Below are positions 9,741 through 36,881 of a stretch of 64,000 nucleotides of DNA, in pieces (within the stretch, counting starts at the first letter, position 1; the number at the start of each line of letters is the position of its first letter). Below the pieces are notes generated by a model. It was not told the origin of the DNA. It did no database searches and worked only from the letters and a program-made list of their open reading frames with translations. This stretch comes from Thauera aromatica K172. GTDB lineage: Bacteria > Pseudomonadota > Gammaproteobacteria > Burkholderiales > Rhodocyclaceae. The stretch spans positions 2,108,001 to 2,172,000 of the forward strand of contig NZ_CP028339.1 of assembly GCF_003030465.1 (NCBI RefSeq), given 5' to 3'. The position numbers and the translations under genes are program-made.

Positions 9741-9775
9741 GCGTTTCAACCGCGGCAAACATCGCCCTGTGGGGC

Positions 9776-10222
9776 TTATGCGCGCATGTCGAGCCAGTCG
9801 TCGAAGGCGCGCAACGCCGCCTTGAGATTGTGCAAGGCGGCGTTGCCCGGCGCGCTGCCGAGCGTCCAGGCCTCGCCGCGGATGGCGAGCTGCCAGCACG
9901 GCGGCGGAGCCTCGCCTTCGAGGTCGCGGTACACCTGCAGGATGCTCTGGGGCGACACTGCGTGGCTGCTGTAACTGACGTCGCGTGCAGCTTCGATGGG
10001 GCACAGCGTGAAGGGGGCCGTCGCGTCGGAGGACGCATCCACGAACAGCACCCGCTCGCGCCCGCGCAGATCGAGTGCATGCTCGACCTGGAGCTGGAAA
10101 TCAGTGAGACATTCCACCCCGGGCAACGCCATCGCCATGACTGCCTCGATGAACAGCGGCCCGAGGGCATCGTCTCCGCGGCTCGGGTTGCCCCAGCCGA
10201 AAACCAGCACCGGCACAGTCAT
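9776..10222 (-). CDS. hoxW: Hydrogenase maturation endopeptidase HoxW
   Basis: 148 residues of the HyaD/HycI/HoxW family. The N-terminal GWGNPSRGDDALGP contains the conserved Asp/Glu region that binds nickel in the large-subunit precursor, and LFVDASSD carries the second acidic site. It cleaves the C-terminal tail of HoxH after the active site is assembled. The ATG at 10222 overlaps the hoxH stop (ATGA), so it is the last gene of the hox operon. Upstream in-frame codons lie within hoxH and were discarded. Confidence 0.9.
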   Translation of the reverse strand: MTVPVLVFGWGNPSRGDDALGPLFIEAVMAMALPGVECLTDFQLQVEHALDLRGRERVLFVDASSDATAPFTLCPIEAARDVSYSSHAVSPQSILQVYRDLEGEAPPPCWQLAIRGEAWTLGSAPGNAALHNLKAALRAFDDWLDMRA

Positions 10223-11685: not shown

Positions 11686-11765
11686 GGTCGTGGCGGGGAG
11701 TCGGGTTGCAGGCGAAGGGGCGGGCGGCACGGTCCGGGCGCTGCGCCGTCGGCCGCGGTGCGATG

Positions 11766-12308
11766 TCAGTCGTAGCGCAGCAGCGGACCGTTGAGCCGGG
11801 GCGGGCGGCCGGCGATCAGCGCGCCGAGAAACTCGCGGAAAGCGTCGGCCGACGGCGGGCAGCCGGGCAGGAAGTGGTCGACATGGACGAGCTCGTGCAC
11901 CGGCCGGACCTTGTCGAGGAGCAGCGGCAGTTCGGGATCGTCGGGAATCGCGCTGCCCGCGGCGAGGCCGCTGCCGCGGCGGTACACCCAGTGCAGGACG
12001 TCGCCCACCGCGAGGTGGTTGCGCTGCGCGGGCAGGCCGCCGTTGATCGCGCAGGCGCCGACCGCGACCAGCACCTTGCACTGGCGGCGGAATTCGTGCA
12101 GCACATGGATGTTCTCGGCGTTGCACAGCCCGCCTTCGATGAGGCCGAGGTCGCAGGGGCCGCAGTGCTTGAGATCGGTCAGCGGCGAGCGGTCGAAGGT
12201 GATGTGCTCGAGCAGCCCGAGCAGATCCTCGTCGATGTCGAGGAAGGACATGTGGCAGCCGAAGCAGCCGGCCAGCGAGACCGTGGCGACCCGCAGCTTT
12301 GCGCTCAT
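11766..12308 (-). CDS. hoxY: Hydrogenase small subunit HoxY
   Basis: 180 residues. The N-terminus SLAGCFGCHMSFLDID holds the proximal-cluster CxxC (C15, C18). Further cluster cysteines appear in GACAINGG and in LPGCPPS. The short length without medial and distal cluster domains is typical of group 3d HoxY, which relays electrons between HoxH and HoxU/HoxF. The ATG overlaps the hoxU stop (ATGA at 12308). Confidence 0.94.
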   Translation of the reverse strand: MSAKLRVATVSLAGCFGCHMSFLDIDEDLLGLLEHITFDRSPLTDLKHCGPCDLGLIEGGLCNAENIHVLHEFRRQCKVLVAVGACAINGGLPAQRNHLAVGDVLHWVYRRGSGLAAGSAIPDDPELPLLLDKVRPVHELVHVDHFLPGCPPSADAFREFLGALIAGRPPRLNGPLLRYD

Positions 12309-13021
12309 TGTCCTTTCTCCAGCGCGGCGGCGGCGGTGCAGCCGTCGGCCTGCTCGAGGTCGCAGGCGCGCGCACCGATCGGAATTGCGAAGCCCACCCG
12401 TTTGCGCAGGATCGCCCCCACCGGGCACACCCCGGCGGCACGGTCGGAGGCCGCGAATGCGGTATCGGCGAGACGCCCGGAAGGGGCGCCGACCACAAGA
12501 TGGGCCTGTGCGCCGCGGCCGGCGATGGCGAACACGTCCTTGCCGTCGATGTCGCGGCTGGCGCGCACGCACAGCTCGCACAGGATGCAGCGGTTGAAAT
12601 CGATCAGCACGTCGGGGTGGGAGGCGTCGAGCGGACGGTCGGGGTAGAAGTGCTCGAAGTGCGGATCGCGCATGCCGAGCCGGTAAGCGGTGCTCTGCAG
12701 CAGGCAGTCGCCGCTCTTCTCGCACGCCGGGCAGAAGTGGTTGCCCTCGACGAACAGCAGCTGGAGCAGCGTGCGCCGGGCAGCGTCCAGCTCGGCGCTG
12801 GCGTTTTCCACCTCGAGGCCGGCCGCCGCCAGCGTGGTGCAGGCCGCCACTTCGCGCCCGCCGCAGCGCACGATGCACAACCGGCACGAGCCATGGGCGC
12901 CGAAATCGGGATGCCAGCACAGGTGGGGAATGTACTTGCCGGCTGCGCGGGCGGCCTGGATCAGGGTCTGGCCGGGCGAGAACGGAATCGCCTCGCCGTC
13001 GAGGAAGAAAGTGTCGCTCAT
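12305..13021 (-). CDS. hoxU: Hydrogenase diaphorase subunit HoxU
   Basis: 238 residues resembling the N-terminal part of NuoG. In order: a [2Fe-2S] domain (LCWHPDFGAHGSCRLC and AAC), a His-Cys3 [4Fe-4S] segment (HFCPACEKSGDC), and a [4Fe-4S] site (CILCELC with CPVG further on). It passes electrons between HoxY and the flavin subunit HoxF. Both ends overlap neighbouring genes by ATGA, so HoxF, HoxU and HoxY should be made in matched amounts. Confidence 0.94.
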   Translation of the reverse strand: MSDTFFLDGEAIPFSPGQTLIQAARAAGKYIPHLCWHPDFGAHGSCRLCIVRCGGREVAACTTLAAAGLEVENASAELDAARRTLLQLLFVEGNHFCPACEKSGDCLLQSTAYRLGMRDPHFEHFYPDRPLDASHPDVLIDFNRCILCELCVRASRDIDGKDVFAIAGRGAQAHLVVGAPSGRLADTAFAASDRAAGVCPVGAILRKRVGFAIPIGARACDLEQADGCTAAAALEKGQ

Positions 13022-14823
13022 CGCAGCGGTTCGTCGGGGAGGGGAGTGGGATCGGGGTGAAAGTGGGCTTGTCGGTCGTCACGCCCGGTGGCCTGCCGTG
13101 CCGGGGCGAGGGCGGCGTCTAGGTCGAAGGCGGGGACGAAATCCTCCGTGCGCAGGCGGCGGCTGAAGGCCGGGCGGAACTTGTCGACGATGTCGGTGAG
13201 CGCCAGCGTCGCCGTGCTGCCCAGGCCGCAATGGCTGGCGCTGCGCAGCAGGCGGTCCATCGCCGCCAGTTCGGCGACATCCGCCGGCACCCCGCGGCCG
13301 GCGGCGATCTTGTCCATCAGGCGGCGGTTGACCGCGGTGCCGACGCGGCACGGAGTGCAGAAACCGCAGCTTTCATGGGCGAAGAAGTCGACGAAGGCGT
13401 GGGCGACGTCGAACAGGTCGCGGCGCTCGTCGAAGACCATGAAGGAGCCGCCGGTGGGCACGTCCTCGAAGGCGATGCGGCGGCCGAACTCGGCCGGGGC
13501 CAGGCAATGACCGGCGGCGCCGGCGATCTGCACCGCCTGCGTCGCCCGCGCACCGCAATCGGCCAGGACTTCGGCGACGGTGACGCCGAACGGATATTCG
13601 TAGATGCCCGGCCGCTCGACGTCGCCCGACACCGACAGCAGCTTGGTGCCGCTCGACTGTGCGGTGCCGATGGCGCGGAAGACCTCGCCGCCGTGGATCG
13701 CGACGAGGCCGGCGAGGGCGAGCGTTTCGACGTTGTTCACCGTCGTCGGCTGGCCGCGGTAGCCGCGGCTGACCGGGAAGGGCGGGCGGATGCGCGGCCG
13801 GCCGGGGCGGCCTTCGAGCGACTCGAGCAGCGCCGACTCCTCGCCGCAGACATAGGCGCCGGCGCCGAGGTGGATCTCGATGTCGAAGTCGAAGCCGCGG
13901 CCGAGGATGTCCGTGCCGAGCAGGCCCTGGCGGCGGCGCTCGGCGAGCAGCGCTTCGAGCGGGTCGAGCAGGTGGCGGTACTCGCCGCGCAGGTAGATGA
14001 AGCCGCGGTGCGCGCCGACGGCGTGGGCGGCGATGCCCATGCCGTCGATCACGAGCTGGGGAAAATCGCTCAGCAGCACGCGGTCCTTGAACGTGCCCGG
14101 CTCGCCCTCGTCGGCGTTGCACACCACGTAGTGCGCTTCGCCGGGTGCGGCGCGGCAGGCCCGCCACTTCGCCGCCGTCGGATAACCGGCGCCGCCGCGC
14201 CCGCGCAGGCGCGAAGCTTCGATCTCGGCCAGCAGGCCCCCGGGGGAGCGGGCGAGGGCGGCGGCCAGCGCCTCGCCGGGGGCGAGGCCGGCACCGAGCA
14301 GGGCGTCGCGGCGGCGGAGGTTGGGCTCGATGCGGAACCACTCTGCCGGCCAGTCATCGACCGCAACCCCGCGCCGGATCAGATCGGCCATCGGCACCAC
14401 GCGCTCGGCGCTCATCCGCGTCAGCGGGCGCTGGTTGACGAGCAGTGCCGGGCCCTGGTCGCACAGGCCGGTGCACGACGTGGTGCCGACGCGGACCCGG
14501 CCATTTCCGGCGGGTAGACCGGGGGCCAGCTCCAGCGCGCGGCACAGCGCCGCAGCCAGCGCCGGGCCGCCCTGCATGCGGTCGGTGATGTTGTCCGCGA
14601 ACAGAATGTCGTAGGCGGGCGCCGGGCCGGTGCGCAGCAGACTGTAGAAGCTCGCGGTGGCCAGGACCTGGGCCAGCGGCAGGGTGAGGGCGGAGGCGAT
14701 CCGTTCGAGCAGGGCAGTCGGCAGGTGTCCGGCCCGCTCCTGCGCCTGGCGCAGGATCTGCAGCAGCTGCCGCGGGTCGTGGTGGTTGGCGGCGAGAATC
14801 GGTTCGAGTTCGGCGTCGCTCAT
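13018..14823 (-). CDS. hoxF: NAD(H)-dehydrogenase subunit HoxF (NuoE-NuoF fusion)
   Basis: 601 residues. An N-terminal NuoE-like domain (1-150) shows only a C-x3-C pair (SCTGLC). The NuoF-like domain follows, with the FMN/NAD glycine-rich loop GRGGAGYPTAAKW, GAYVCGEESALL, and the [4Fe-4S] motif SCGFCTPCRVG plus HCGLG. HoxF is the site of NAD+/NADH exchange in the soluble hydrogenase. The ATG at 14823 overlaps the stop of the upstream MFS gene. The same frame stays open upstream, but that reading runs antisense-free through the MFS gene and has no family match. Confidence 0.94.
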   Translation of the reverse strand: MSDAELEPILAANHHDPRQLLQILRQAQERAGHLPTALLERIASALTLPLAQVLATASFYSLLRTGPAPAYDILFADNITDRMQGGPALAAALCRALELAPGLPAGNGRVRVGTTSCTGLCDQGPALLVNQRPLTRMSAERVVPMADLIRRGVAVDDWPAEWFRIEPNLRRRDALLGAGLAPGEALAAALARSPGGLLAEIEASRLRGRGGAGYPTAAKWRACRAAPGEAHYVVCNADEGEPGTFKDRVLLSDFPQLVIDGMGIAAHAVGAHRGFIYLRGEYRHLLDPLEALLAERRRQGLLGTDILGRGFDFDIEIHLGAGAYVCGEESALLESLEGRPGRPRIRPPFPVSRGYRGQPTTVNNVETLALAGLVAIHGGEVFRAIGTAQSSGTKLLSVSGDVERPGIYEYPFGVTVAEVLADCGARATQAVQIAGAAGHCLAPAEFGRRIAFEDVPTGGSFMVFDERRDLFDVAHAFVDFFAHESCGFCTPCRVGTAVNRRLMDKIAAGRGVPADVAELAAMDRLLRSASHCGLGSTATLALTDIVDKFRPAFSRRLRTEDFVPAFDLDAALAPARQATGRDDRQAHFHPDPTPLPDEPLR

Positions 14824-25639: not shown

Positions 25640-27001
25640 TCAGTCCACTTCCATCTTGCCGCTTTCGGCGGCGAACGCCAGGTTCCTCTTCTCGATCGGG
25701 GCATGCCGTGCGCTGCGCCCGACCAGCGAGATCGCCAGCCCGGCAATCACCCCGGGAACCGCGAAGGCGAGGAAGTTCATCTGCAGGGGCAGCTCCGCCG
25801 CCATCAGCATGCCGCCCAGGATCGGGCCGAGAATCGCGCCCATGCGCCCGACGCCCGAGGCCCAGCCCAGGCCGGTGGAGCGGATGTGCATGGGGTAGTA
25901 CTGGGCGACATAGGCGTACAGCAGGATCTGCGTGCCGATCGTGGTCGCACCGGCGATGGCGACCACGCCATACAGCACCACGGTCGGGTTCTTGAAGCCG
26001 AGCAGGCTGATCGAGACCGCAGCGATGGCGAAGAACACCGTCAGCACGCGGCGCAGGTGCAGGCGGTCGGCGATCCAGCCGCCGCCGATGGCGCCGAAGA
26101 TCGCGCCGAAGTTGAGCACCAGCAGGAAGCCCAGGCTTGAGCCCAGCGCGTAGCCGGCCGAGTTCATCAGCTTCGGCAGCCAGGAGCCGAGCGCGTACAC
26201 CATCAGCAGGCAGCAGAAGAACGCCACCCAGAAGCTCGCCGTGCTCAGCAGCCGGCCCTCGGTGAACAACTGCCCGACCGAGCCTTTCTGCCCTTTGGCG
26301 GCCTCGATCACGAAACGGTCGCCGGCCTGGGCACGGAACGACGGCTCGACCCGGGCCAGCATCCGGCCGGCTTCCGCTTCGCGCTGGTCACGCACCAGGA
26401 AGCCGACCGATTCGGGCAGGAAGCGCAGGATCACCGGCAGCAGCAAGAGCGGAACGATGGCGACGAAGAACAGCGACTGCCAGCCGAAATTCGACAGCAT
26501 GTAGATGCCGAGCCCCGCCGACAGCATGCCGCCGACGGCGTAGCCGCTGAACATGATCGCCACCAGCGTGCTGCGGATCTTGCGCGGAGCGTATTCGCTC
26601 ATCAGCGCGACGACGTTGGGCATCACCCCGCCGATGCCGAGCCCGGCGAGGAAGCGGCACACGCCGAATTCGAGCGGGTTGCGCGCGAAGCCGTTGATGA
26701 AGGTGAAGCCGCTGAACAGGATCACGCAGATCGCGATCGCCTTCTTGCGCCCGATGCGGTCGGACAGCGGGCCGAAGATCAGCGCTCCGAACATCATGCC
26801 GAACAGCGCGTAGCTCCCCAGGGCCCCGGCCTGCAGCGGCGGCAGCTGCCATTCCTGCATCAGCTTGGGCAGAACGACGCCGTAGATCACCAGATCGTAG
26901 CCGTCGAAGATGATGATCAACGCGCACCAGAACAGCACGGTCCAGTGGAATCGGTTGAATCTTGCTTCATCGATGATTTTGTTGACGTCAACAGCTCTCA
27001 T
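25640..27001 (-). CDS. MFS permease, aromatic acid:H+ symporter (AAHS) type
   Basis: 453 residues with 12 membrane segments. The order DGYDLVIYGVVLP in helix 1, GPLSDRIGRKKAI in loop 2-3 and the loop 8-9 repeat matches the AAHS family (BenK, PcaK, VanK), which imports benzoate, protocatechuate or vanillate-type acids. A GGAG lies 5 bases before the ATG at 27001. It is divergent from the corrinoid methyltransferase operon across a 529-bp AT-rich region. That arrangement suggests it supplies the substrate of that operon, for example a methoxylated aromatic acid (inference). Confidence 0.87.
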   Translation of the reverse strand: MRAVDVNKIIDEARFNRFHWTVLFWCALIIIFDGYDLVIYGVVLPKLMQEWQLPPLQAGALGSYALFGMMFGALIFGPLSDRIGRKKAIAICVILFSGFTFINGFARNPLEFGVCRFLAGLGIGGVMPNVVALMSEYAPRKIRSTLVAIMFSGYAVGGMLSAGLGIYMLSNFGWQSLFFVAIVPLLLLPVILRFLPESVGFLVRDQREAEAGRMLARVEPSFRAQAGDRFVIEAAKGQKGSVGQLFTEGRLLSTASFWVAFFCCLLMVYALGSWLPKLMNSAGYALGSSLGFLLVLNFGAIFGAIGGGWIADRLHLRRVLTVFFAIAAVSISLLGFKNPTVVLYGVVAIAGATTIGTQILLYAYVAQYYPMHIRSTGLGWASGVGRMGAILGPILGGMLMAAELPLQMNFLAFAVPGVIAGLAISLVGRSARHAPIEKRNLAFAAESGKMEVD

Positions 27002-27530
27002 GCGAACTCCGGGTTCTGTTTTCGAGATGTGGTCGAGGCGGGGTATCACGGAAACGAATACCGCCTCATTCGGAAGTTGAATGCTCGTTCATCAGATTTG
27101 GGGTGTCAATGAAGGTATTAGTAATTTCTTTATATAACGATCAACAAATAAACGAATAACAAGCCTGGAAAAGCCTCTTCATGCCGGTTATCCGCTCCAT
27201 CCGTAGTGGATTCGGCCGGTGTCGCCCGTTTTTGCCGCGACACCTGGAAAATATAGTTGGAAATCAATCAATCTTGTTTATTTGTATACAGAAATTTAAA
27301 TAAAATTTACGAATTGTTTGGCGTCGAACGGTTTTTTGGCTTTTTCATGGCTTTCTTTTGATAAATATCAATCTGTTGTGAAGATTGGCCAAACTTCCTG
27401 CGACGTCGATTGACCGCCTTTCTGCTGAGTTGTATACATCTTCCCATCAAGACCGGTCAGCGCCTGGCGCTTCAAAAGCCGTAGCGACGGCTTTCCGGCC
27501 GCATCCACTGTCAGCGGGAGCCTGTATACG
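27002..27530. promoter_or_regulatory. AT-rich divergent control region with TGTATAC palindromes
   Basis: This region is strikingly AT-rich against its surroundings and shows no coding signal. TTGTATACA occurs at 27282-27290 and 27430-27438, and TGTATACG at 27523-27530 directly against the metVF start codon. A fourth TGTATAC lies inside the gene (27583-27589). Such palindromes fit operators of GntR/FadR-type or similar dimeric repressors. The third copy sits between the ribosome binding site (GGGAG, 27516-27520) and the ATG. I found no cobalamin-riboswitch core. Confidence 0.5.
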
Positions 27531-28991
27531 ATGTACTCGGTACGTCTCTGGTCGGTTCGCAATGCCCGTGCCCTGCATCGGCTGTATACCTTCTTCTCGC
27601 GGCTGGCGCCGCGGTTGGCGCCGCTGGTGCACCGGGTAGGAGAGCGACGGGCGGAAGTCCTGCTGCGGCCGCTCGAGCGGAGCGCGAAAAACGTCCTCTT
27701 CGACTGCCGGATGTGCGGCCAATGCGTGCTGTCCTCGACCGGCATGGCCTGCCCGATGAACTGCGCCAAGCAGATGCGCAACGGCCCGTGCGGCGGGGTG
27801 CGCGCCGACGGCCAGTGCGAAGTCGAGCCCGGGATGCGCTGCGTCTGGGTGGAGGCAACCGAAGGCACGAAGCGCATCGCCGCAGACCACCTCGCCCATC
27901 CGACGCCGCTGCTGCCGGCGATCGACCAGCGCCGCCGCGGACGTTCGACCTGGATCGAGGTCGTCCATGGGCGTCCGGCGCCGGTGTTCCAGCCCCCGGT
28001 GGGCGAGCGCATCACCCCAGAGAGCGAGCAGAGCCTGTTCGAACGCAGCTGCGCCGCCGGGCGCCCGGTGGTCACGGTCGAGATCGCCCCGCCGGACTCG
28101 GCCGATCCGGCCGCGCTGCTGGCGCGCGCCGAACTGTTCCGCGGCCTCGTCGATGCGATGAACATCACCGACGGCGCCGGCGGCAACTGCCACATGTCGA
28201 GCGTGGCGGCTTCGGCGATCCTCGCCACCCACGGCTTCGAGCCGGTCTATCAGATCGCCTGCCGCGACCGCAACCGGATCGCGATCCAGGGCGACCTGCT
28301 CGGCGCCGCCGCGCTCGGCGTGAAGAACATCCTGTGCCTGACCGGCGACGACGTCAGCCGCGGCGACCATCCGCAGGCCAAACCGGTGTTCGACCTCGAC
28401 GCCGTGTCGCTGCTGCATGTAGCGCGCGGCATGTGCGACCGCGCCGAATTCGCCTCCGGGCGCAAGCTCGAACAGGCGCCCGACCTCTTCATCGGCGCCA
28501 CCGTCAATCCCTTCGTGCCTCCTTATGTGGACCGGGTCGCCAATCTCGAAAAGAAGATCCGCGCCGGGGCGCGCTTCATCCAGACCCAGTTCTGCTTCGA
28601 CGTCGAGCGTTTCGCCGACTTCATGGCCGAGGTCCGCCGCCGCGGCCTCCATCGCCAGGCGCACATCCTCGTCGGCGTGGGCACGCTGGGTTCGGCGAAG
28701 GCCTTGCGCTGGATGGCGAACAACGTCCCCGGAGTGTTCATCCCGGAAGCCTTGCTCGCCCGCATCGAGGCCGCGCCCGACCAGAAGGCCGAAGCAAAGC
28801 AGGCGTGCATCGAGATCATCCGCGCGGTGACCGCGATCGAAGGCGTGGCCGGCGTCCATCTGATGGGCCACCGCAACGAAGCGGTGCTCGCCCGCATCAT
28901 CGTCGACGCCGGCCTGCGCGCGCCGCCGCCGGCCGTCGATGAGGCCGATCCTGGCGCCGCCCCGGCGTCGTCGCGGCTGGCCGCAGCGTGA
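27531..28991 (+). CDS. MetV-MetF fusion, methylene-tetrahydrofolate reductase
   Basis: 486 residues. The N-terminal about 110 residues hold eight cysteines (59, 62, 65, 74, 78, 87, 96, 104) in the MetV pattern CRMCGQCVLSSTGMACPMNC. A linker leads to a MetF-type barrel from about residue 180 (RPVVTVEIAPP, ITDGAGGNCHMSS, RDRNRIAIQGDLLGA, LTGDDVSRGDH). In acetogens MetV and MetF are usually separate subunits; here they are fused. The enzyme would interconvert methyl- and methylene-H4folate, probably oxidising methyl groups delivered by the downstream methyltransferases. It is the first gene of the operon and has a TGTATAC palindrome against its ATG. Confidence 0.85.
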   Translation: MYSVRLWSVRNARALHRLYTFFSRLAPRLAPLVHRVGERRAEVLLRPLERSAKNVLFDCRMCGQCVLSSTGMACPMNCAKQMRNGPCGGVRADGQCEVEPGMRCVWVEATEGTKRIAADHLAHPTPLLPAIDQRRRGRSTWIEVVHGRPAPVFQPPVGERITPESEQSLFERSCAAGRPVVTVEIAPPDSADPAALLARAELFRGLVDAMNITDGAGGNCHMSSVAASAILATHGFEPVYQIACRDRNRIAIQGDLLGAAALGVKNILCLTGDDVSRGDHPQAKPVFDLDAVSLLHVARGMCDRAEFASGRKLEQAPDLFIGATVNPFVPPYVDRVANLEKKIRAGARFIQTQFCFDVERFADFMAEVRRRGLHRQAHILVGVGTLGSAKALRWMANNVPGVFIPEALLARIEAAPDQKAEAKQACIEIIRAVTAIEGVAGVHLMGHRNEAVLARIIVDAGLRAPPPAVDEADPGAAPASSRLAAA

Positions 28992-29027
28992 CACTTGAAT
29001 GACCAACAACCCGAAGGAGGAGACACC

Positions 29028-29708
29028 ATGAGCGAACAGGACATTTTGAACGCACTGGAAGGCGAAGAGCGCGAGCTCGTCGAGTGGCTGGCCGACATGA
29101 ACGAGGACGATGCGCTGGCGCTGGCCAACCGGATGCTGCTCGAAGACAAGAAGAGCCCGCTGCGCGTGCTCGAACTGTGCCGGATGGCGATGGACATCGT
29201 CGGCAAGCGCTTCGAGGAAGGCGAATATTTCCTCCCCGAGCTGGTGCTCGCCGGCGAGATGCTCGAGCAGGTCGGCGCCATCGCCAAACCGCTGCTGGTC
29301 GACGGCGAGGGCGAAGGGGCGAAGAAGCTCGGCCGCGTGCTGGTGGGCACGGTGCACGGCGACCTCCACGACATCGGCAAGAACATCGTCAGCTTCATGC
29401 TCGATATCAACGGCTACGAGGTCAAGGACATCGGCATCGACGTGCCGGTGGCCACCTTCCTCGACGAGGTGCGCAGCTTCAAGCCCGACGTGGTGGCGTT
29501 GTCCGGCTTCCTGACCCTGGCGTTCGACTCGATGAAGGAGACCGTCGAAGCCTTCGAGAAGGAAGGGCTGCGCGACCAGTTCAAGATCATGGTCGGCGGC
29601 GGCCAGATCGACGAGACCGTGCGCGCCTACACCGGCGCCGACGGCTTCGGCGTCAATGCGGTGGAGGCGGTCAACCTGTGCAACCGCTGGCTGGGGGTGG
29701 CGGCATGA
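29028..29708 (+). CDS. Methyltransferase cognate corrinoid protein
   Basis: 226 residues. An N-terminal helical cap (1-95) precedes the B12-binding Rossmann domain with the base-off motif DLHDIG (residues 112-117, His114 being the lower axial ligand), then SGFLTL and GGGQID. This is the MtvC/MtaC/MtbC architecture: it carries the methyl group as methylcobalamin between two methyltransferases. A strong AAGGAGGAG precedes the ATG. The stop overlaps the next gene (ATGA at 29705), coupling it to its URO-D partner. Confidence 0.92.
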   Translation: MSEQDILNALEGEERELVEWLADMNEDDALALANRMLLEDKKSPLRVLELCRMAMDIVGKRFEEGEYFLPELVLAGEMLEQVGAIAKPLLVDGEGEGAKKLGRVLVGTVHGDLHDIGKNIVSFMLDINGYEVKDIGIDVPVATFLDEVRSFKPDVVALSGFLTLAFDSMKETVEAFEKEGLRDQFKIMVGGGQIDETVRAYTGADGFGVNAVEAVNLCNRWLGVAA

Positions 29709-30973
29709 ACGCGCCGATCGAAGCGAGCGCCGCCGCCCAGGTGGCCTACGACGAACGCTGGCAGCGCATCCTCGACTGCGTCGCCCTGAAGCAGCCCGAC
29801 CGCATGCCGACCGCGTTCTACGCCACCTTCTGGCTCGCCAAGAAATACGGCAACATCAGCTGCAAGGAGCTGATGTACGACTACGAAAAGACCAAGGCGC
29901 TGGCCGAGCGCGCGGTGCTCGAATTCGAGCCCGACGCCTGCGCACCGATTGTCGCCGCAGTGGCCTCGGGGCGCTCGCTCGAGGCGATCGGCTTCAAGCA
30001 GCTGCAGTGGCCCGGCCACGGCGTCGACGAGAACCAGCCTTTCCAGTACCTCGACCGCGAATACATGCTGGCCGACGAGTACGACGAGTTCCTCTTCGAC
30101 CCCACCGGCTTCTACCTGCACAAATACCTGCCGCGGGTGGCGAGCGCCTTCGAAGGCATCGACCAGCTGCCGATCTTCCCCGGCCTGCATTACTTCCGCC
30201 TCATCAACGGCATCCGCTCGTTCGCCAAGCCCGACGTGCGTGCCAGCTTCGAGCGCATCATCCGCGCCGCCGAGGAGGTGGAGACCTTCGCCGCCCACGG
30301 CGCCGACTTCAACGCCCGCATCAAGGCCCACGGCTTCCCGCTGATCAACGGCGTCAATGCAGTGTCGCCGTACGACTTCATCGCCGACTACTTCCGCGGC
30401 GCCACCGGCATGATGAAGGACCTCTACCGCAACAAGGACAAGCTCCTCGCGCTGCTCGACAAGGCCTCGATCTTCCTCACCCGGCAGACCATCGCCACCG
30501 CCCAGGCCTCCGGCCATCCGATCGTGATGATCCCGATCCACTGGGCACCGGACGCCTTCATGTCGGACAAGCAGTTCCAGACCTTCTGGTGGCCGCCGTT
30601 CCGCAAGATGCTGATCGGCCTGATCGACGCCGGCCTGATCCCGATGCCGCTGTGGGAAGCCGACTGTACCAAGCGCCTGGAGACGATCCGCGACGTGCCC
30701 GCGGGCAAGTGCATCTACTGGTTCGAGCGCACCGACATGGTCAAGGCCTTCGAGGTGCTCGGCGACGTGGTCGCGCTGCGCGGCAACCTGTCGCCGTCGC
30801 TGCTTACCACCGGCCGCCCCGAAGAAGTCGATGCCGCGGTCAAGCACCTGGTCGACAATGTCTGGAACAAGGGCGGCAAGCTGATCCTCGACGCCGCCTT
30901 CGGCATTCCCGACGAGACTCCGGTCGACAACGTGCGCGCGATGTACGCTGCCGCGCGCAAGTACGCCGGCTGA
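29705..30973 (+). CDS. URO-D-family corrinoid methyltransferase (MT-I candidate)
   Basis: 422 residues of the uroporphyrinogen decarboxylase fold, the family of MtaA, CmuA and the O-demethylase methyltransferase MtvB. True HemE is excluded by context and by the divergent N-terminus (LKQPDRMPTAFYATFWLAKKYG). IPIHWAPDAFM and PMPLWEADCTKRL are candidate metal or substrate sites. It probably moves a methyl group from the growth substrate to the corrinoid protein encoded just upstream. Substrate unknown: methoxyaromatic acids fit the neighbouring transporter; chloromethane-type chemistry (CmuA relatives) is an alternative. Confidence 0.82.
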   Translation: MNAPIEASAAAQVAYDERWQRILDCVALKQPDRMPTAFYATFWLAKKYGNISCKELMYDYEKTKALAERAVLEFEPDACAPIVAAVASGRSLEAIGFKQLQWPGHGVDENQPFQYLDREYMLADEYDEFLFDPTGFYLHKYLPRVASAFEGIDQLPIFPGLHYFRLINGIRSFAKPDVRASFERIIRAAEEVETFAAHGADFNARIKAHGFPLINGVNAVSPYDFIADYFRGATGMMKDLYRNKDKLLALLDKASIFLTRQTIATAQASGHPIVMIPIHWAPDAFMSDKQFQTFWWPPFRKMLIGLIDAGLIPMPLWEADCTKRLETIRDVPAGKCIYWFERTDMVKAFEVLGDVVALRGNLSPSLLTTGRPEEVDAAVKHLVDNVWNKGGKLILDAAFGIPDETPVDNVRAMYAAARKYAG

Positions 30974-31001
30974 CGCACGCGAGCGCCTGGAGTCCGCGAC
31001 C

Positions 31002-31676
31002 ATGTCCGCACTGAGCTGCGCGAGCCTGCTGCGCCAGCTGCCCCCGCCGGCGCCCGATGAGCGTCCCGGAGCGCAGCGCCGGCGCGCGGCGGCGCTCGCC
31101 GAAGTGTGCGCCGACGCCCTCGTCGAGCCTGCCTACAGTGTGCGCATCGTCGCGCTCGAAGCCCCGCCAGGCGCGATCCTGCGTGCCGGCGGCCAGTGCC
31201 TGCATGCCCCGCGCCTGGTGCCGGCCTCGGGCCGGCTCACCGCCCTCGGCGCGGTGGCGTGCACGCTCGGGCCGCGCCTGGAAGAGCGCGTGCGGGCCCA
31301 TTTCGCCGCCCGCCGCCCGGCCGCCGCGCTCGCCCTCGACGAGCTGGGCACCGCGCTGCTGCTCGCGCTCGTACGCCACGCCCAGGACCGCCTGGTCGCG
31401 CAGGCCGCCCGTCGCGGCCTGAGCGTGGCCGGCGAGCTCGCCGCGGGCGACCCCGGACTCGCGCTCGACGCCCAGGCCACCGTGCTCCAGCTCGCCGACG
31501 GCGCAGCGATCGGCATGCGCGCCAGTGCCGCGGGCGCGCTTCATCCACTCAAGTCGTGCACCAGCGTGCACGGGGTCGGCATCGCGCTCCCCGCCACCGC
31601 CTGGTCGCGCTGCGACGCCTGCCCCTCGGCGCCGCGGTGCACGATCGCGCGCCGGCGCAAGGAGATTCCCGCATGA
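31002..31676 (+). CDS. B12-dependent methionine synthase activation-domain protein
   Basis: 224 residues resembling the stand-alone MetH activation-domain family found in corrinoid methyltransferase operons. Visible marks are LGPRLEERVRAHF, LALDELGTALLLALVRHAQDRL and a C-terminal cysteine group SRCDACPSAPRC (C-x2-C-x5-C), which could bind metal or an Fe-S cluster. It may help reactivate or dock the corrinoid protein together with the RACo-like activator. Its stop overlaps the next start (ATGA at 31673). A 28-base gap separates it from the URO-D gene. Confidence 0.7.
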   Translation: MSALSCASLLRQLPPPAPDERPGAQRRRAAALAEVCADALVEPAYSVRIVALEAPPGAILRAGGQCLHAPRLVPASGRLTALGAVACTLGPRLEERVRAHFAARRPAAALALDELGTALLLALVRHAQDRLVAQAARRGLSVAGELAAGDPGLALDAQATVLQLADGAAIGMRASAAGALHPLKSCTSVHGVGIALPATAWSRCDACPSAPRCTIARRRKEIPA

Positions 31677-33769
31677 ACCGCAGCCAGGAGCATGCCCGCG
31701 CCGCGGACGCGGCGACCGAGTCCAACCTCCCCGCGGATGCGGCGCCCGAGTCCGGCCGTCCCGTCGACACCGGCGCCCCCAACGCGTCCTACCGCTTGTA
31801 TTTCCCTCAGCTCGAACGCGAGATCGCCTGCGAAGCGGGCGAGAGCCTCTTTCACGCCGCCCGCCGCCACGGCGTGCGCATCGTCGGCGCCTGCGGCGGA
31901 CGTGGCACCTGCGCGAGCTGCATGGTGCGGGTCAGCGAGGGTGCGCTGCGCCCGCTCGAGGGGCGCGGCCCGCAGGGCTTCGACATCGTCCTCGACGACG
32001 AGGGGCGGCCGACGAACCGGCGGCGCTGGATGCGCGCCTGCCGCATCGGCGCACGCAGCGACTGCACCGTCGAGATCGGCGCGCGCTCGCTGGCGCCGGT
32101 GGTGCGCGCCGAGGAAGAAAGCGCGCTCGCCGGCGAAGAGGCCGCTCCCGCCCTCGCGCTCGACCCCGCCGTCCGTGCGCACGAGCTCGACGTCCCCGCG
32201 CCCAGCCTCGCCGACGATCGCGCCGATGCCGACCGCGTGCTCGACGCTTGCCGCGAGCGGGAAGCGCACGAAGCCGGGCAGCGGATGATTCCGGCTGCGC
32301 AAGACGCCGCCACACTCGCAGCGCCCCCGCGCGCGCTCACCGTCGCCCCCGCTGCCACCGCCGAACTCGCCACCGTGCTGCGCGCCGGCAGCGGCCCCCG
32401 TTGCCGCCTGCGCGCCTGGCAGCGGGGCGGGGCGCTGATCGCGTTCGCCCCGAGCGGGCGGCGCAGCCTGGGGCTGGCGGTCGATCTGGGCACCACCAAC
32501 CTGGCCGCCTTCCTCGTCGATCTGGACGACGGCCGCACGCTCGCCCGCCTCGGCGTGGAGAACCCGCAGACCGCCTGGGGCGCCGACCTGGTGAGCCGCA
32601 TCGACCATGCGGCGGGCGATCCCAAGGTCGCCGAGGCCCTGCGCGCCGCCGCACTTGAGGCGATCGATGCGCTCGCCCACGACCTGTGCGCCAGCATCGG
32701 CCAGCGCCCGCAGGACATCGTCGATGTCGCCGTGTGCGGCAACACCGCCATGCACCACCTGCTGCTCGGCCTGCCAGTGCGCCAGCTCGGGCGCGCGCCC
32801 TTCGTCGCCGCGCTGCGCGACAGCGTCGACCTGAGCGCGCGCGAGCTCGGGCTCGCCGTGGCCCCCGGCGCCTGGGTCCACGTCGCCCCCAACATCGGCG
32901 GCTTCATCGGCGGCGACCACGTCACCGCGCTGCTCGCCACCGAGTCACGCTGGCGCGGACTCGGCTGCGCGCTGGTGATGGACATCGGCACCAACACCGA
33001 GATCAGCCTCATCCACCGCGGCCGGCTGTGGTCGGCGTCCTCGCCCTCGGGGCCGGCGCTCGAAGGCGGGCACATCGGCTGCGGCATGCGCGCGGCCGAA
33101 GGCGCGATCGAGAAAGTCACCCTCGAAGACGGGCGTCTGGCGGTGCACACCATCGGCGGCGGTGAGGCGGTCGGGCTGTGCGGCTCGGGTGTGCTCGACG
33201 CGGTGGCCGCGCTGCGCCGCGGCGGCCTGCTCGATGCCCGCGGCCGGCTGAGCGCCACCCACCCGGACATCGTCAGCGGCGAAGACGGCCGGCGTGCCGC
33301 CCAGCTCGCCCCCGAAGTGCTGTTCACCCAGGCCGACGTGCGCGCGGTGCAACTGGCCAAGGCCGCGATCCGCAGCGCTACCGAGCTGCTGCTGGCCGAA
33401 GCCGGGCTCGCCGAGGACGCGATCGAGTGCTTCATCCTCGCCGGCGCCTTCGGCGCCTACCTCGACATCGACAGCGGCATCGACATCGGCCTGTTCCCGC
33501 CGTTGCCGCGCAGCCGCTTTGTCCAGGTCGGCAACGCCGCCGGGCAGGGCGTGCGCCACCTGCTGCGGTCGTGCGCCGAGCGCGAACACGCGCGCGAACT
33601 GGCACGCACCGCGCAGGCGTGCGCGCTCAACGCCCGCGCCGATTTCCAGAACGTCTTCCTCCGCCACATCGGCTTTGCCGAGCCCCCCGAGATATCCGAA
33701 CCCTCCGAGGCCGCCGCGACGACGGCCTGCGCCAACCCAAGCACCGCCACTGAAGAGAGTCCGTCATGA
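31673..33769 (+). CDS. RACo-like corrinoid activation protein (2Fe-2S plus ASKHA)
   Basis: 698 residues. After an Ala-rich N-terminus (1-38), a plant-type [2Fe-2S] domain has C74, C80, C83 and C123. A linker/middle region (about 130-262) leads to an ASKHA ATPase domain starting at LGLAVDLGTTNLAAF, with MDIGTNTEISL, GHIGCGMRAAEGAIE, GLCGSGVLD and AGAFGAYLDIDSG. RACo-type proteins reduce inactive Co(II) to Co(I) using ATP. An AAGGAGATT ribosome binding site precedes the ATG. Both ends overlap neighbours by ATGA. Confidence 0.9.
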   Translation: MNRSQEHARAADAATESNLPADAAPESGRPVDTGAPNASYRLYFPQLEREIACEAGESLFHAARRHGVRIVGACGGRGTCASCMVRVSEGALRPLEGRGPQGFDIVLDDEGRPTNRRRWMRACRIGARSDCTVEIGARSLAPVVRAEEESALAGEEAAPALALDPAVRAHELDVPAPSLADDRADADRVLDACREREAHEAGQRMIPAAQDAATLAAPPRALTVAPAATAELATVLRAGSGPRCRLRAWQRGGALIAFAPSGRRSLGLAVDLGTTNLAAFLVDLDDGRTLARLGVENPQTAWGADLVSRIDHAAGDPKVAEALRAAALEAIDALAHDLCASIGQRPQDIVDVAVCGNTAMHHLLLGLPVRQLGRAPFVAALRDSVDLSARELGLAVAPGAWVHVAPNIGGFIGGDHVTALLATESRWRGLGCALVMDIGTNTEISLIHRGRLWSASSPSGPALEGGHIGCGMRAAEGAIEKVTLEDGRLAVHTIGGGEAVGLCGSGVLDAVAALRRGGLLDARGRLSATHPDIVSGEDGRRAAQLAPEVLFTQADVRAVQLAKAAIRSATELLLAEAGLAEDAIECFILAGAFGAYLDIDSGIDIGLFPPLPRSRFVQVGNAAGQGVRHLLRSCAEREHARELARTAQACALNARADFQNVFLRHIGFAEPPEISEPSEAAATTACANPSTATEESPS

Positions 33770-34668
33770 CTGAAAGCACCCTCAGCGAAACCAACCGCTT
33801 CGGCATCCGCATCATCGGCGAGCGCATCAACCCCGGCTTCAAGAGCACGCGCGCGATGTTCGAGGACAAGGACCTCGCCGCCATCCAGGCGCTCGCGCTC
33901 AAGCAGGTCGAGGCCGGCGCCTTCGCCCTCAACGTCAACATCGGCCCGCAGGCGATGACCGACCGTGGCTTCCTGGTCGACGTGATTCGCGCCATCCAGG
34001 ACGTGGTCGCGGTGCCGCTGTCGTTCGATGTGCCCACCACCGAGCTCTTCGCCCTGTGCCTCACCACCTACGATCGTGAGCGCACCGGCGGCGAGCTGGC
34101 GATCGTCAACTCCATCACCGAACACCGCTGGGAAGCGATGCAGCTCTACCGCGACCTGCCGTTCCGGGTCATGGTGATGGCCTCCGAGCGCGTCACCGAC
34201 GGCGTGGCGAAGAACAACAAGACCGCCGAGGACATCGCCGCCACCGCACGGCGCGCGGCGCTGCGCCTGCGCGACGAATACGGCATGGCGCTCGATCACG
34301 TCTTCGTCGACCTGTCGGTGAGCGCGATCATCGCCGACACCGAGGGCCTGAACCGCGCCACCCTCGACGCGGTGCGCCTGATCGGCGCCGACCCGGACCT
34401 GAAAGGCCTGCACATGATGGGCGGACTGTCCAACATCGGCCAGCAGCTCCCGCCCAAGGCCGCCGACGGCTCGGACCTCAAGCACGGGCTGGAAAACGCC
34501 TTCCTCACCCTGGCGGTGCCGCACGGCTTCGACACCGTGCTCGGCACCCCGTGGCGCGGCTATGCGCCGCTGGCCGAAGACGACTACGTGCTCACCGCCT
34601 ACCGCAACTTCCTCGACACTACCGGCAGCAACGCGCTGCGCGCGGTGCGCAAGCTCTACAAGGCCTGA
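33766..34668 (+). CDS. Methyltetrahydrofolate:corrinoid methyltransferase (MT-II)
   Basis: 300 residues of the pterin-binding AcsE/MtvA/CmuB family. The barrel opens with IIGERINPGF and continues with LNVNIGPQAMTDR, SFDVPTTELF, IVNSITEHRWEAMQ, VFVDLSVSAIIAD and MGGLSNIGQQLP, the expected pterin-site elements. It would transfer the methyl group from methylcobalamin to tetrahydrofolate, feeding the MetV-MetF fusion protein. The start overlaps the activator gene stop (ATGA at 33766). Confidence 0.9.
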   Translation: MTESTLSETNRFGIRIIGERINPGFKSTRAMFEDKDLAAIQALALKQVEAGAFALNVNIGPQAMTDRGFLVDVIRAIQDVVAVPLSFDVPTTELFALCLTTYDRERTGGELAIVNSITEHRWEAMQLYRDLPFRVMVMASERVTDGVAKNNKTAEDIAATARRAALRLRDEYGMALDHVFVDLSVSAIIADTEGLNRATLDAVRLIGADPDLKGLHMMGGLSNIGQQLPPKAADGSDLKHGLENAFLTLAVPHGFDTVLGTPWRGYAPLAEDDYVLTAYRNFLDTTGSNALRAVRKLYKA

Positions 34669-34670
34669 AC

Positions 34671-35885
34671 ATGATCCCGACCGATCGCTTTGCCGTCGTC
34701 GCCGACGGCTGGTTCGACGGTGAGCGCCTGCACGCGCACGGCCCGTTCACCTTCCGCATCGAGGAGGGGCGCATCGCCGACATCGCCGCGGGCGACTTCG
34801 GCGCGACGCTCGCCACCCAGGGGATGGAGGTCGTGCGTGGCGGCTTTCTGATGCCCGGGCTGGTCGATGCCCACGTGCACCTGTTCCTCGACGGCGCCCC
34901 GACCGACGGCGCCCAGCGCGCCGCCCATCTCAAGAAGCCGGTCGAGGACCTGGTCGACGCCGCCCGCGCGAGCGCCCGCCAGGCGCTCGCCTGCGGGGTG
35001 ACCCTGGTGCGCGACGCGGGCGATCGTCACGGCATCAACCACCGGCTCCGCGACGAAGCCGCCCACAGCCCGGGCCTTGCCCGGGTGCGCTCGGCCGGGC
35101 TCGGAGTCAAGCGCCCCAAGCGCTACGGCGCCTTCATGGCGCGCGACGTCGCCGACGACGCCGCGATCCGCGACTCGGTGCGCGAACTGGCCCGCGACAG
35201 CGATGAGATCAAGCTGATCCTGACCGGGATCATCGACTTCGACGCCGGCGCGGTCACCGACGAGCCGCAGTTCGATCTGGCCGCGGCGCGCCTGGTGGTC
35301 GACACCGCGCGCGCCTGCGGGCGCACCACGATGGTCCACTGCAGCGGCGCGGCCGGACTGGAGATCGCCGCCCGCGCCGGAGTCGGCTCGATCGAGCACG
35401 GCTTCTTCATGCGCCGCGACCTGCTGGCGCTGATGGCCGAGCATGACGTCGCATGGACGCCGACCTTCTGCCCGGTGCATTTCCAGTGGGCGCAGCCCGA
35501 GGCGGTGGGGTGGTCGGCACAGACCGTGGGCAACCTGCGCCGCATCCTCGACGAACATGCGCGCCACCTGCTCATCGCCCGCGAGCTCGGAGTGCGCCTG
35601 CTGCTCGGCACCGACGCCGGCAGCATGGGAGTCGAGCACGGCCACGCTGTGCATGAGGAAATCGAGCGCTACCTCGAAGCGGGCCTCACCACCGCCGAAG
35701 TGCTGCAGGCCGCCACCGCCACCGCCCGCCGCCACTTTGGCCATCCCCACCCGCGCCTCGAACGCGGCGCGCCCTTCGATGCGCTGCTGCTCGAGCGCTC
35801 GCCGTTCGAGGACATCGGTGCGCTGCGCACGCCCTTGCGTGCCTGGGCGGGGCAGCCGGCCTGCGAAGGAGAAGCGCTGCAATGA
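34671..35885 (+). CDS. Metal-dependent amidohydrolase
   Basis: 404 residues of the imidazolonepropionase-like amidohydrolase superfamily. Metal ligands appear as HxH (H68, H70 in DAHVHLF), a possible carbamylated lysine in EIKLIL, His in MVHCSG and IEHGFF, and Asp in LLGTDAGS. It begins 2 bases after the methyltransferase stop and overlaps the folD fragment (ATGA at 35882), so it belongs to the operon. Its role is not standard for C1 transfer operons. It might release the methylated substrate from an amide or ester precursor, or deaminate a by-product (speculation). Confidence 0.83.
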   Translation: MIPTDRFAVVADGWFDGERLHAHGPFTFRIEEGRIADIAAGDFGATLATQGMEVVRGGFLMPGLVDAHVHLFLDGAPTDGAQRAAHLKKPVEDLVDAARASARQALACGVTLVRDAGDRHGINHRLRDEAAHSPGLARVRSAGLGVKRPKRYGAFMARDVADDAAIRDSVRELARDSDEIKLILTGIIDFDAGAVTDEPQFDLAAARLVVDTARACGRTTMVHCSGAAGLEIAARAGVGSIEHGFFMRRDLLALMAEHDVAWTPTFCPVHFQWAQPEAVGWSAQTVGNLRRILDEHARHLLIARELGVRLLLGTDAGSMGVEHGHAVHEEIERYLEAGLTTAEVLQAATATARRHFGHPHPRLERGAPFDALLLERSPFEDIGALRTPLRAWAGQPACEGEALQ

Positions 35886-36019
35886 GCGCGCAGATCATCG
35901 ACGGCAAAGCCTTGTCCCGGCATCTTCGCCGCCGATGCCGGGAAAGGGTGGGGGCTCGGCCGAGCGCGGCCTGGAACGAGGGAGCGGTAGCGGCCGTCCG
36001 GTCTGGGATACGGCCGTGA
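35882..36019 (+). pseudogene. folD: 5' fragment of folD, truncated
   Basis: The first residues, MSAQIIDGKALSRHLR, match the start of FolD (methylene-H4folate dehydrogenase/cyclohydrolase). After about 16 codons the similarity ends, and the frame runs through unrelated sequence to a TGA at 36017. The 45-codon product cannot be an enzyme. It overlaps the amidohydrolase stop (ATGA), so a full folD once closed this C1 operon. The break lies just before the tRNA-Val promoter, consistent with a deletion or recombination event at this junction. Confidence 0.7.
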
Positions 36020-36079: not shown

Positions 36080-36154
36080 GGGCGGTTAGCTCAGCGGTAG
36101 AGCACTGCCTTCACACGGCAGGGGTCACTGGTTCGATCCCAGTACCGCCCACCA
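36080..36154 (+). tRNA. tRNA-Val (anticodon CAC)
   Basis: 75 bases including an encoded CCA. The acceptor stem pairs GGGCGGT with ACCGCCC. The D arm is GCTC/GAGC. The anticodon stem CTGCC/GGCAG carries loop TTCACAC, giving anticodon CAC, which reads GTG. The T loop is GTTCGATCC. It follows a strong promoter. Confidence 0.96.
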
Positions 36155-36225: not shown

Positions 36226-36300
36226 GGGCGATTAACTCAGCGGTAGAGTGCCACCTTCACACGGTGGAAGTCAGTGGTTCGATCCCACTATCGCCCACCA
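36226..36300 (+). tRNA. tRNA-Val (anticodon CAC), second divergent copy
   Basis: 75 bases with encoded CCA. It has the same anticodon CAC (stem CCACC/GGTGG) but differs from the first copy by paired changes: acceptor GGGCGAT/ATCGCCC, D stem ACTC/GAGT, and changes in the anticodon and T stems. All stems pair, so it should fold and function. It is probably cotranscribed with the first copy, 71 bases upstream. Confidence 0.95.
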
Positions 36301-36464: not shown

Positions 36465-36881
36465 TCAGGCTTTCAACACTTCGGTACAGAACACCGTTGG
36501 CGTCAGGATGCGGGTGCGGCCCAAGTGGCCGCGCTGCAGCAGGCCAGCCCGGCGATCGCCGGTCACCAGATAGTCCACGTTGCCCGCGCCGGCCATGGCC
36601 AGCAAGAAGGCATCGTCTGGGTCGTCCGCCTCGAAATGGTGCGGCAACTGCTCCAGCACGAGGGCCCGCTGCAGGTTGTTGATCATCACCCCCACCTTGA
36701 CAGGTTGCAGCACCGCCTGCAGCTTGGGGTAACGGCTGGCGCGGCGGATTTCCTCAAGTTGCGCGCGGGAGGTCACAAGCTCGAAGCGCGCGCTGCGCCA
36801 GGCACGGTAAATCGCATCCGGTGCCCCGTGTGGCGAAATCAGCGCACTGAACAGGATGTTGGTGTCGAGCACCACCCGCAT
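36465..36881 (-). CDS. PIN-domain ribonuclease toxin (VapC-like)
   Basis: 138 residues. The PIN fold starts MRVVLDTNILFSAL with catalytic Asp6 and Asn8. A second acidic region (EADDPDDAFLLAMA) and YLVTGDRR complete the active site. It resembles the PIN_3/COG1569 toxins that cleave RNA. The start codon overlaps the antitoxin stop by one base (TAATG at 36881), so the two are coupled. GC content is lower than in the flanking metabolic genes. Confidence 0.85.
   Translation of the reverse strand: MRVVLDTNILFSALISPHGAPDAIYRAWRSARFELVTSRAQLEEIRRASRYPKLQAVLQPVKVGVMINNLQRALVLEQLPHHFEADDPDDAFLLAMAGAGNVDYLVTGDRRAGLLQRGHLGRTRILTPTVFCTEVLKA

Follow-up and report, generated by a model that had tools for sequence, protein, structure and literature searches.

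A candidate oxygen-independent O-demethylase operon with putative VanR-type operators in Thauera aromatica K172

A seven-gene corrinoid methyl-transfer operon

A 64-kb stretch of the genome of Thauera aromatica K172 (3.71 Mb, 2 contigs), which we call the window and whose positions serve as coordinates below, carries seven consecutive genes for corrinoid-dependent methyl transfer, followed by a fragment of folD. A preliminary description of this DNA had read these genes as one operon, and a Pfam scan of the open reading frames (ORFs) in the window agreed with it, since all seven are contiguous plus-strand ORFs with matching domains in the order described. Judged from sequence, the operon likely encodes an O2-independent O-demethylase for vanillate-type methoxylated aromatic acids, which would drain the methyl group to formate and belong to a VanR-type regulon. 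The genes are as follows (THF, tetrahydrofolate).

27531-28991, plus strand: MetV-MetF fusion (metVF), a methylene-THF reductase with an N-terminal Cys-rich MetV domain (PF12225, 6.5e-24; PF02219, 3e-36)
29028-29708, plus strand: corrinoid protein (PF02607 and PF02310, B12-binding), containing the letters DLHDIG
29705-30973, plus strand: URO-D-superfamily substrate:corrinoid methyltransferase (MT-I), 422 aa (PF01208, 1.3e-21)
31002-31676, plus strand: divergent stand-alone MetH-type activation (B12 reactivation) protein, with invariant C204, C207 and C213
31673-33769, plus strand: RACo-type reductive activator with 2Fe-2S and ASKHA domains (PF14574, 1.3e-67; PF17651, 2e-46; PF00111, 4.9e-8)
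33766-34668, plus strand: methyl-corrinoid:tetrahydrofolate methyltransferase (MT-II; Pterin_bind PF00809, 8.1e-9)
34671-35885, plus strand: amidohydrolase of the Xaa-Pro dipeptidase/arginine carboxypeptidase/ochratoxinase group (Amidohydro_1 PF01979, 2.1e-22, and solved relatives)
35882-36019, plus strand: folD remnant of 45 codons with an internal deletion, no working gene; both ends match L004:16273-17184

The genes had been described as mostly joined by ATGA overlaps. Such overlaps are found at four of the seven junctions (corrinoid protein/MT-I, reactivation protein/RACo, RACo/MT-II and amidohydrolase/folD start), and at the remaining three the genes are separated by 36, 28 and 2 bases. 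What had been taken for the start of folD is the remnant of an internally deleted gene, an intact copy of which lies in a second cassette of the same genome (L004, see below). The DLHDIG letters of the corrinoid protein we take to be the DxHxxG cobalamin motif, and MT-II matches structures of methyl-THF:corrinoid/iron-sulfur protein methyltransferases at 2.4e-10. As a single sequence the reactivation protein has no Pfam match. Nevertheless, a profile built from 42 homologues retrieves 1j6r, a MetH activation domain (E 1.1e-6), and all 19 structure matches (E ≤ 0.001) of its AlphaFold2 model (pLDDT 92.3) are methionine synthase activation domains or fragments containing one. The modelled protein thus has the MetH activation fold.

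Identity of the MT-I

The best solved relative of the MT-I is CdmB of Acetobacterium (PDB 9rui), found at E 9.5e-35 with the single sequence and at 4.1e-51 by profile, while UroD structures follow far behind (1.4e-7 and 7.4e-9). Against curated models, the MT-I was rejected both as HemE (NCBIfam, 40.1 bits vs a cut-off of 302.95) and as MtaA/CmuA (29.8 bits vs 235); the MtaA model is likewise far below its cut-off. Grouping with HemE had been named beforehand as one outcome that would overturn the reading, and it did not occur. From these comparisons, we assign the protein to the corrinoid MT-Is of the UroD superfamily, outside HemE and MtaA/CmuA. The AlphaFold2 model (pLDDT 92.9, pTM 0.90) has a UroD-type fold by Foldseek, and its nearest neighbors are UroD entries and an M. 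mazei methyltransferase; CdmB is not among the 50 matches listed (structure library to April 2026). The fold search thus does not separate the MT-I from HemE. Pieces of CdmB added to the MT-I tree sit on a very long branch.

Three residues, H279, E318 and C321, are invariant in 57 of 57 aligned MT-Is and align with W, Q and H in CdmB. They are candidates for a metal or acid site usable in ether cleavage. According to one report, zinc is present in some O-demethylases but not in CdmB or in the O-demethylase of Moorella (PMC13222342). The Moorella enzyme speaks against zinc as a general need, so that a zinc site at these residues is only an idea.

Distribution of the cassette

A contig scan with the MT-I, covering the best 80 of 99 relatives, yielded 79 loci, and the addition of L004 and L012 made 81. 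Counts over these loci are lower bounds, as many loci end at contig ends and genes were called by a simple script. Corrinoid protein, MT-I, RACo and MT-II are all present in 49 of the 81 loci, in 45 of these in the same order on one strand, and almost all carriers are proteobacterial (by record labels, all of the 79 loci except one Desulfuromonadales and one Terriglobia bin). The other cassette genes occur less evenly: metVF in 42 loci, the reactivation protein in 47, the amidohydrolase in 41 and folD in 7. At E ≤ 1e-40, the MT-I is found in 5 of 61 genomes including the host; within the genus group it is in 3 of 29, namely the host, G024 and G025. Related genes are present in cultured Thauera phenylacetica, Aromatoleum anaerobium and Paramagnetospirillum caucaseum, and further carriers are labelled as groundwater, lake and sludge bins. 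Plasmid carriage found no support, as a tblastn search of 72,556 plasmid records with the MT-I gave no match at E ≤ 1e-20.

The amidohydrolase is an accessory gene of the cassette. It directly follows MT-II in 39 of the 50 loci with 1.5 kb of room, and at E ≤ 1e-60 it is found in 4 of the 61 genomes, all four MT-I positive; at that threshold the fifth MT-I-positive genome, G046, has none.

Several loci depart from the common arrangement. In L023, L025, L035, L060, L061 and L097 the MT-I gene is solo, with no corrinoid protein, RACo or MT-II labelled in the stretch examined, and such MT-Is may share the back end of another cassette. The solo gene of L035 adjoins VanA-like, 4,5-dihydroxyphthalate-decarboxylase-like (by eye) and ABC-transporter-like genes. 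A genome of another genus (G034, L014-L017) has four MT-I copies with 70-77% identity, one of them in a cassette with corrinoid protein, reactivation protein, RACo, MT-II and amidohydrolase, and another beside a piece of a corrinoid protein near a contig end. In L091:2747-5323, two tandem MT-I genes lie between the corrinoid protein and RACo.

Neighboring genes and the likely substrate

Methoxylated aromatics had been proposed as the substrate, and genes of vanillate and protocatechuate metabolism beside related operons, together with the VanR-type operator described below, fit this proposal. The commonest recurrent neighbor cluster is a VanA-like Rieske oxygenase, which lies within 10 kb in 14 of 81 loci. 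Its proteins are 34-100% identical to one member, and all seven that were scanned have a VanA_C domain. In 13 host genomes (own genome left out; 51.4 Mb) there are 21 VanA-like genes at E ≤ 1e-40, by which the 79 loci (1.23 Mb) would be expected to hold about 0.5 by chance, a generous estimate because these genomes were picked for having one. With one member per cluster annotated, 8 loci have VanB-like reductases and 10 have GntR-family regulators; LigA- and LigB-like proteins occur together in 5 loci, and 3 loci have PobA. On the MT-I tree the VanA label, carried by 13 rows, requires 7 changes, and none of 500 shuffles was as low; the linkage is thus partly clustered and of several origins. 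In seven loci (L065, L066, L053, L070, L071, L037 and L042), only 4-21 bases separate the van genes from each other or from the metVF that follows them directly, so that a single transcript may encode both demethylases.

Candidate operators of the VanR type

The DNA before the operon and at its very start contains sites that we regard as candidate operators of a VanR-group repressor.

27283-27290: palindrome TGTATACA, candidate operator 1
27431-27438: palindrome TGTATACA, candidate operator 2, 148 bp from operator 1
27523-27530: degenerate operator TGTATACG, directly before the metVF ATG, kept in G025
27583-27590: degenerate operator TGTATACC, within the metVF gene and missing from the G025 set

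Four of the seven GTATAC cores of the window lie between 27,284 and 27,584. In the whole genome, TGTATACA occurs six times, twice before the operon and twice before vanR-vanA-vanB; of the other two copies, one lies where a different FCD-GntR gene begins and one precedes a hydroxyacyl-CoA dehydrogenase/hydratase gene. The reversed-pattern control occurs once genome-wide. The van cluster of the host lies in L100 (vanR, 8519-9280; VanA_C protein, 9370-10419; reductase, 10506-11471). The sister genome G025 keeps the first three sites and the 148-base spacing, although two 300-base bins there are only 81-83% identical. Upstream DNA of related operons holds 20 GTATAC in 36.4 kb vs 1.9 expected, and a site lies 10-34 bases before vanA in L024, L084, L065 and L066; L065 and L066 have a GntR gene together with this site.

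The palindrome is the core of the measured operator ATGTATACAT of Atu1419, and Atu1419 (6z74) is also the best PDB match of the host VanR (E 8.3e-62), in an alignment where the recognition-helix letters SRTPxR are conserved. One report describes Atu1419 of Agrobacterium fabrum as a VanR-group FCD-GntR repressor that binds ATGTATACAT and represses a MetF-like gene and a THF-dependent vanillate O-demethylase (PMC7797058). It also describes two operator copies 190 bp apart in one promoter, with looping seen by microscopy, and proposes methylene-THF as the effector from gel shifts and mutants (PMC7797058). Since the operon has candidate operators in front of it and the genome encodes an Atu1419-like regulator, the best reading is that the operon belongs to a VanR-type regulon. 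By analogy with Atu1419, the simplest reading of the induction is that methylene-THF made by MetVF would induce both demethylases.

A second cassette in the same genome

The genome carries a second cassette (L004, about G000:C1:203-213 kb), which has an intact folD (L004:16273-17184) and its own metVF. The back ends of the two cassettes are near-identical: from 31,091 to 35,890, only two 150-base bins differ, both at the RACo linker (139/150 plus a 30-base gap, and 149/150), and this linker difference argues against an assembly duplicate. The MT-Is, in contrast, share 62% identity, and in one 150-base bin as few as 49% of the bases agree. A quick tree groups the MT-I of the window with Thauera sequences and that of the second cassette with a Rubrivivax and a Burkholderiaceae bin, the latter three rows having an SH-aLRT of 100. 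Recent copying has thus held the common back end almost constant, and two old and different MT-Is have been retained. This amounts to a natural specificity swap, through which substrate specificity can be tested directly. G025 differs from the window similarly in its front and back parts, so that either direction of copying between the cassettes fits. As there is no GTATAC site at L004, the second cassette probably has another substrate and regulator. Its surroundings (G000:C1:194000-213500) include a regulator that is LuxR-like by eye and shares a cluster with L088 and L091 proteins, a molybdoenzyme resembling formate dehydrogenase (289 bits, below the cut-off) and ORFs that are EthD-like by eye.

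Fate of the methyl group and proposed mechanism

Thauera is a genus of facultative, denitrifying degraders of aromatics. Acetogenesis based on carbon monoxide dehydrogenase/acetyl-CoA synthase (CODH/ACS) is not supported, as its CdhC component was found in none of 16 genomes, host included, and formyl-THF synthetase, present in 3 of the 16, is absent from the host. The methyl group is therefore probably oxidized through THF, as had been suggested. PurU exceeds its cut-off in all 16 genomes, and the host formate dehydrogenase alpha subunit scores 697.7 vs a cut-off of 666.25 when pieces in one frame are summed. The presence of PurU throughout also weakens the idea that the amidohydrolase is an obligatory stand-in for a missing formate release, which we keep as an open idea. 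The host has a benzoyl-CoA reductase A (933 bits), and T. aromatica degrades protocatechuate anaerobically according to one report (PMC4585845). Demethylation to protocatechuate together with methyl oxidation under respiration would thus form a coherent whole.

From the observed gene content, protein families, conservation, motif distribution and presence or absence of pathway genes, we infer the substrate, direction of flow, electron acceptor, repressor and effector of the following scheme. The MT-I would move the O-methyl group of the aryl substrate to the Co(I) of the corrinoid protein, freeing a phenol (protocatechuate if the substrate is vanillate), and MT-II would pass it to THF, with RACo and probably also the MetH-like protein rescuing inactivated corrinoid. 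MetVF would then oxidize methyl-THF to methylene-THF, FolD (encoded elsewhere) and PurU would carry the C1 unit to formate, and formate dehydrogenase would convert this to CO2, with the electrons entering respiration. An Atu1419-like repressor of the VanR group would bind TGTATACA before both the operon and vanR-vanA-vanB, and would probably be released as methylene-THF, the product of MetVF, accumulates. A bolder version, in which a single folate-sensing repressor governs the O2-dependent VanAB and the O2-independent corrinoid demethylase and the amidohydrolase is a new C1 enzyme such as a formyl-THF hydrolase that frees formate, we put forward tentatively and rather doubt. On that version, two enzymes of unrelated chemistry would act on one and the same methoxyl group, in some species from one operon, and proteobacteria at oxic-anoxic borders could keep using lignin monomers as oxygen swings.

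Alternative explanations

Several observations weigh against an O-demethylase under VanR-type control. In the host, vanAB lies about 225 kb away, so that the gene linkage comes from relatives, and 67 of the 81 loci have no VanA neighbor within the stretch examined. The folD of the window is broken. GTATAC cores precede just 11 of 66 related operons, some occur in another context (e.g. AGTATACT in L040), and 9 of 13 loci checked lack one in the 400 bases before vanA. A GntR neighbor and GTATAC before the cassette coincide in three loci only (L024, L049 and L084). Given the two further TGTATACA sites in the host genome, one of them at the other FCD-GntR gene, another repressor could act at the operon. 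As for the enzyme, the best sequence relative of the MT-I, CdmB, uses haloalkanes and not methoxyaromatics, and the likeness to MtvB, OdmB, VdmB and MtoB is drawn from published descriptions.

The relationship to CdmB raises the question of a Cdm-type chloromethane or haloalkane dehalogenase, whose MT-I would channel CH3Cl to Co(I) with methyl-THF oxidized as in Cmu methylotrophs. Not only is CdmB the closest solved relative, but Cdm likewise consists of an MT-I, a corrinoid protein and an MT-II plus an activating enzyme. However, the invariant H279, E318 and C321 face W, Q and H in CdmB, whose central cavity is described as mainly aromatic and metal-free. Moreover, the neighbors are vanAB-, ligAB- and pobA-like, the operator is of the VanR type, and none of the ten annotated neighbor proteins, a small sample, points to haloalkanes, all of which makes a dehalogenase quite improbable. 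Another methyl donor (e.g. veratrate, methoxyphenols or N- or S-methyl compounds) is easier to accommodate but still unlikely. Under that explanation the VanR link would reflect shared methylene-THF sensing only. Since Atu1419 answers methylene-THF and not an aromatic substrate, any THF-linked demethylation could use such a repressor, and the MT-I paralogues are diverse, with a second cassette that has no GTATAC; on the other side, vanAB- and protocatechuate-type genes recur beside related operons. The chance that the operon serves C1 assimilation or methyl donation, supplying methyl-THF for biosynthesis without catabolic oxidation, appears very slim. MT-II would deliver methyl-THF, and methylene-THF reductase reactions are reversible in principle, but MetVF, PurU and formate dehydrogenase permit full oxidation and the operator resembles that of a catabolic regulon.

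Relation to known systems

If the operon is an O-demethylase of vanillate-type acids, its closest counterparts are known. Mtv of Moorella, Odm/Vdm of Acetobacterium dehalogenans and MtoABCD of Methermicoccus have the same separate MT-I, corrinoid protein, MT-II and activator, with an MT-I of the UroD superfamily. The methyl acceptor in acetogen and archaeal O-demethylases is folate or methanopterin according to two reports (PMC8630106, PMC13222342). In contrast to the acetogen systems, the host lacks CODH/ACS and the operon adds MetVF, the MetH-type reactivation protein and the amidohydrolase. Cdm of A. dehalogenans has a three-component design like the operon, but CdmB is stated not to convert methoxyaromatics (PMC13222342). 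Cmu of methylotrophs, like the operon, feeds corrinoid chemistry into THF oxidation in Proteobacteria. The genes for CmuA/CmuB are accompanied by metF, folD and purU. CmuA is described as MT-I and corrinoid protein in one (PMC13222342), whereas here the 422-aa MT-I has PF01208 only and the corrinoid gene is separate.

Atu1418-1420 of A. fabrum resembles the operon in its THF-linked vanillate demethylation, its MetF-like gene and its VanR-group repressor on ATGTATACAT; Atu1420, however, passes the methyl group straight to THF, while the operon instead uses a corrinoid chain of MT-I, corrinoid protein and MT-II. LigM/DesA of Sphingobium is a comparable THF-linked system. VanAB shares the likely substrate, and in the host genome the same palindrome precedes its regulator gene, but the protein is unrelated. 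It is a Rieske oxygenase that needs O2 and releases formaldehyde.

A search of titles and abstract openings in the open-access literature, outside which most subscription papers lie, gave no proteobacterial corrinoid O-demethylase operon of this kind. A 2005 paper by Mechichi et al. is said, going by its title, to deal with methoxylated aromatics in Clostridium methoxybenzovorans and Thauera sp. Cin3,4. A mire survey reports mtxB genes across 19 bacterial phyla, Proteobacteria included (PMC10805028). The chemistry is known. What looks new is the group of hosts, the addition of genes for MetVF, the reactivation protein and the amidohydrolase, the connection with vanAB, and the operator.

Methoxyl removal from lignin monomers without oxygen by respiring bacteria is poorly worked out. 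In a 2025 study of Rhodopseudomonas palustris, vanAB homologues, of an enzyme class that typically involves O2, are reported as essential for S-unit use even without oxygen, and anaerobic G- and S-lignin pathways are called less thoroughly annotated in any organism than the p-hydroxybenzoate pathway (PMC12366328). The operon offers a full candidate gene set for O2-independent demethylation, with a candidate regulator type and a proposed effector, and the rare DNA signal before it also precedes the O2-dependent genes of the cell for the same job. If the assignment is true, acetogen-type demethylation would extend to Proteobacteria.

Other features of the window

The genes around the cassette include the following.

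25640-27049, minus strand: divergent AAHS-type MFS aromatic-acid/H+ symporter, possibly for substrate uptake (start alternatively 27013)
36080-36154, plus strand: tRNA-Val(CAC) flanking the cassette, with a second copy at 36226-36300

The permease scores 411 bits with TIGR00895 (cut-off 418.6) and 278 bits with the PcaK model (cut-off 770). It had been taken as a pointer to the substrate. This use of it is weakened, since a transporter at least 57% identical occurs in 12 of the 61 genomes, nine of them without the MT-I, which speaks against a dedicated partner. Elsewhere in the window, ORFs at 9776-14823 (minus strand) resemble by eye an NAD-type NiFe hydrogenase and its maturation protease, and one at 36465-36881 (minus strand), adjoining the two tRNA-Val genes, resembles by eye a PIN-domain protein.

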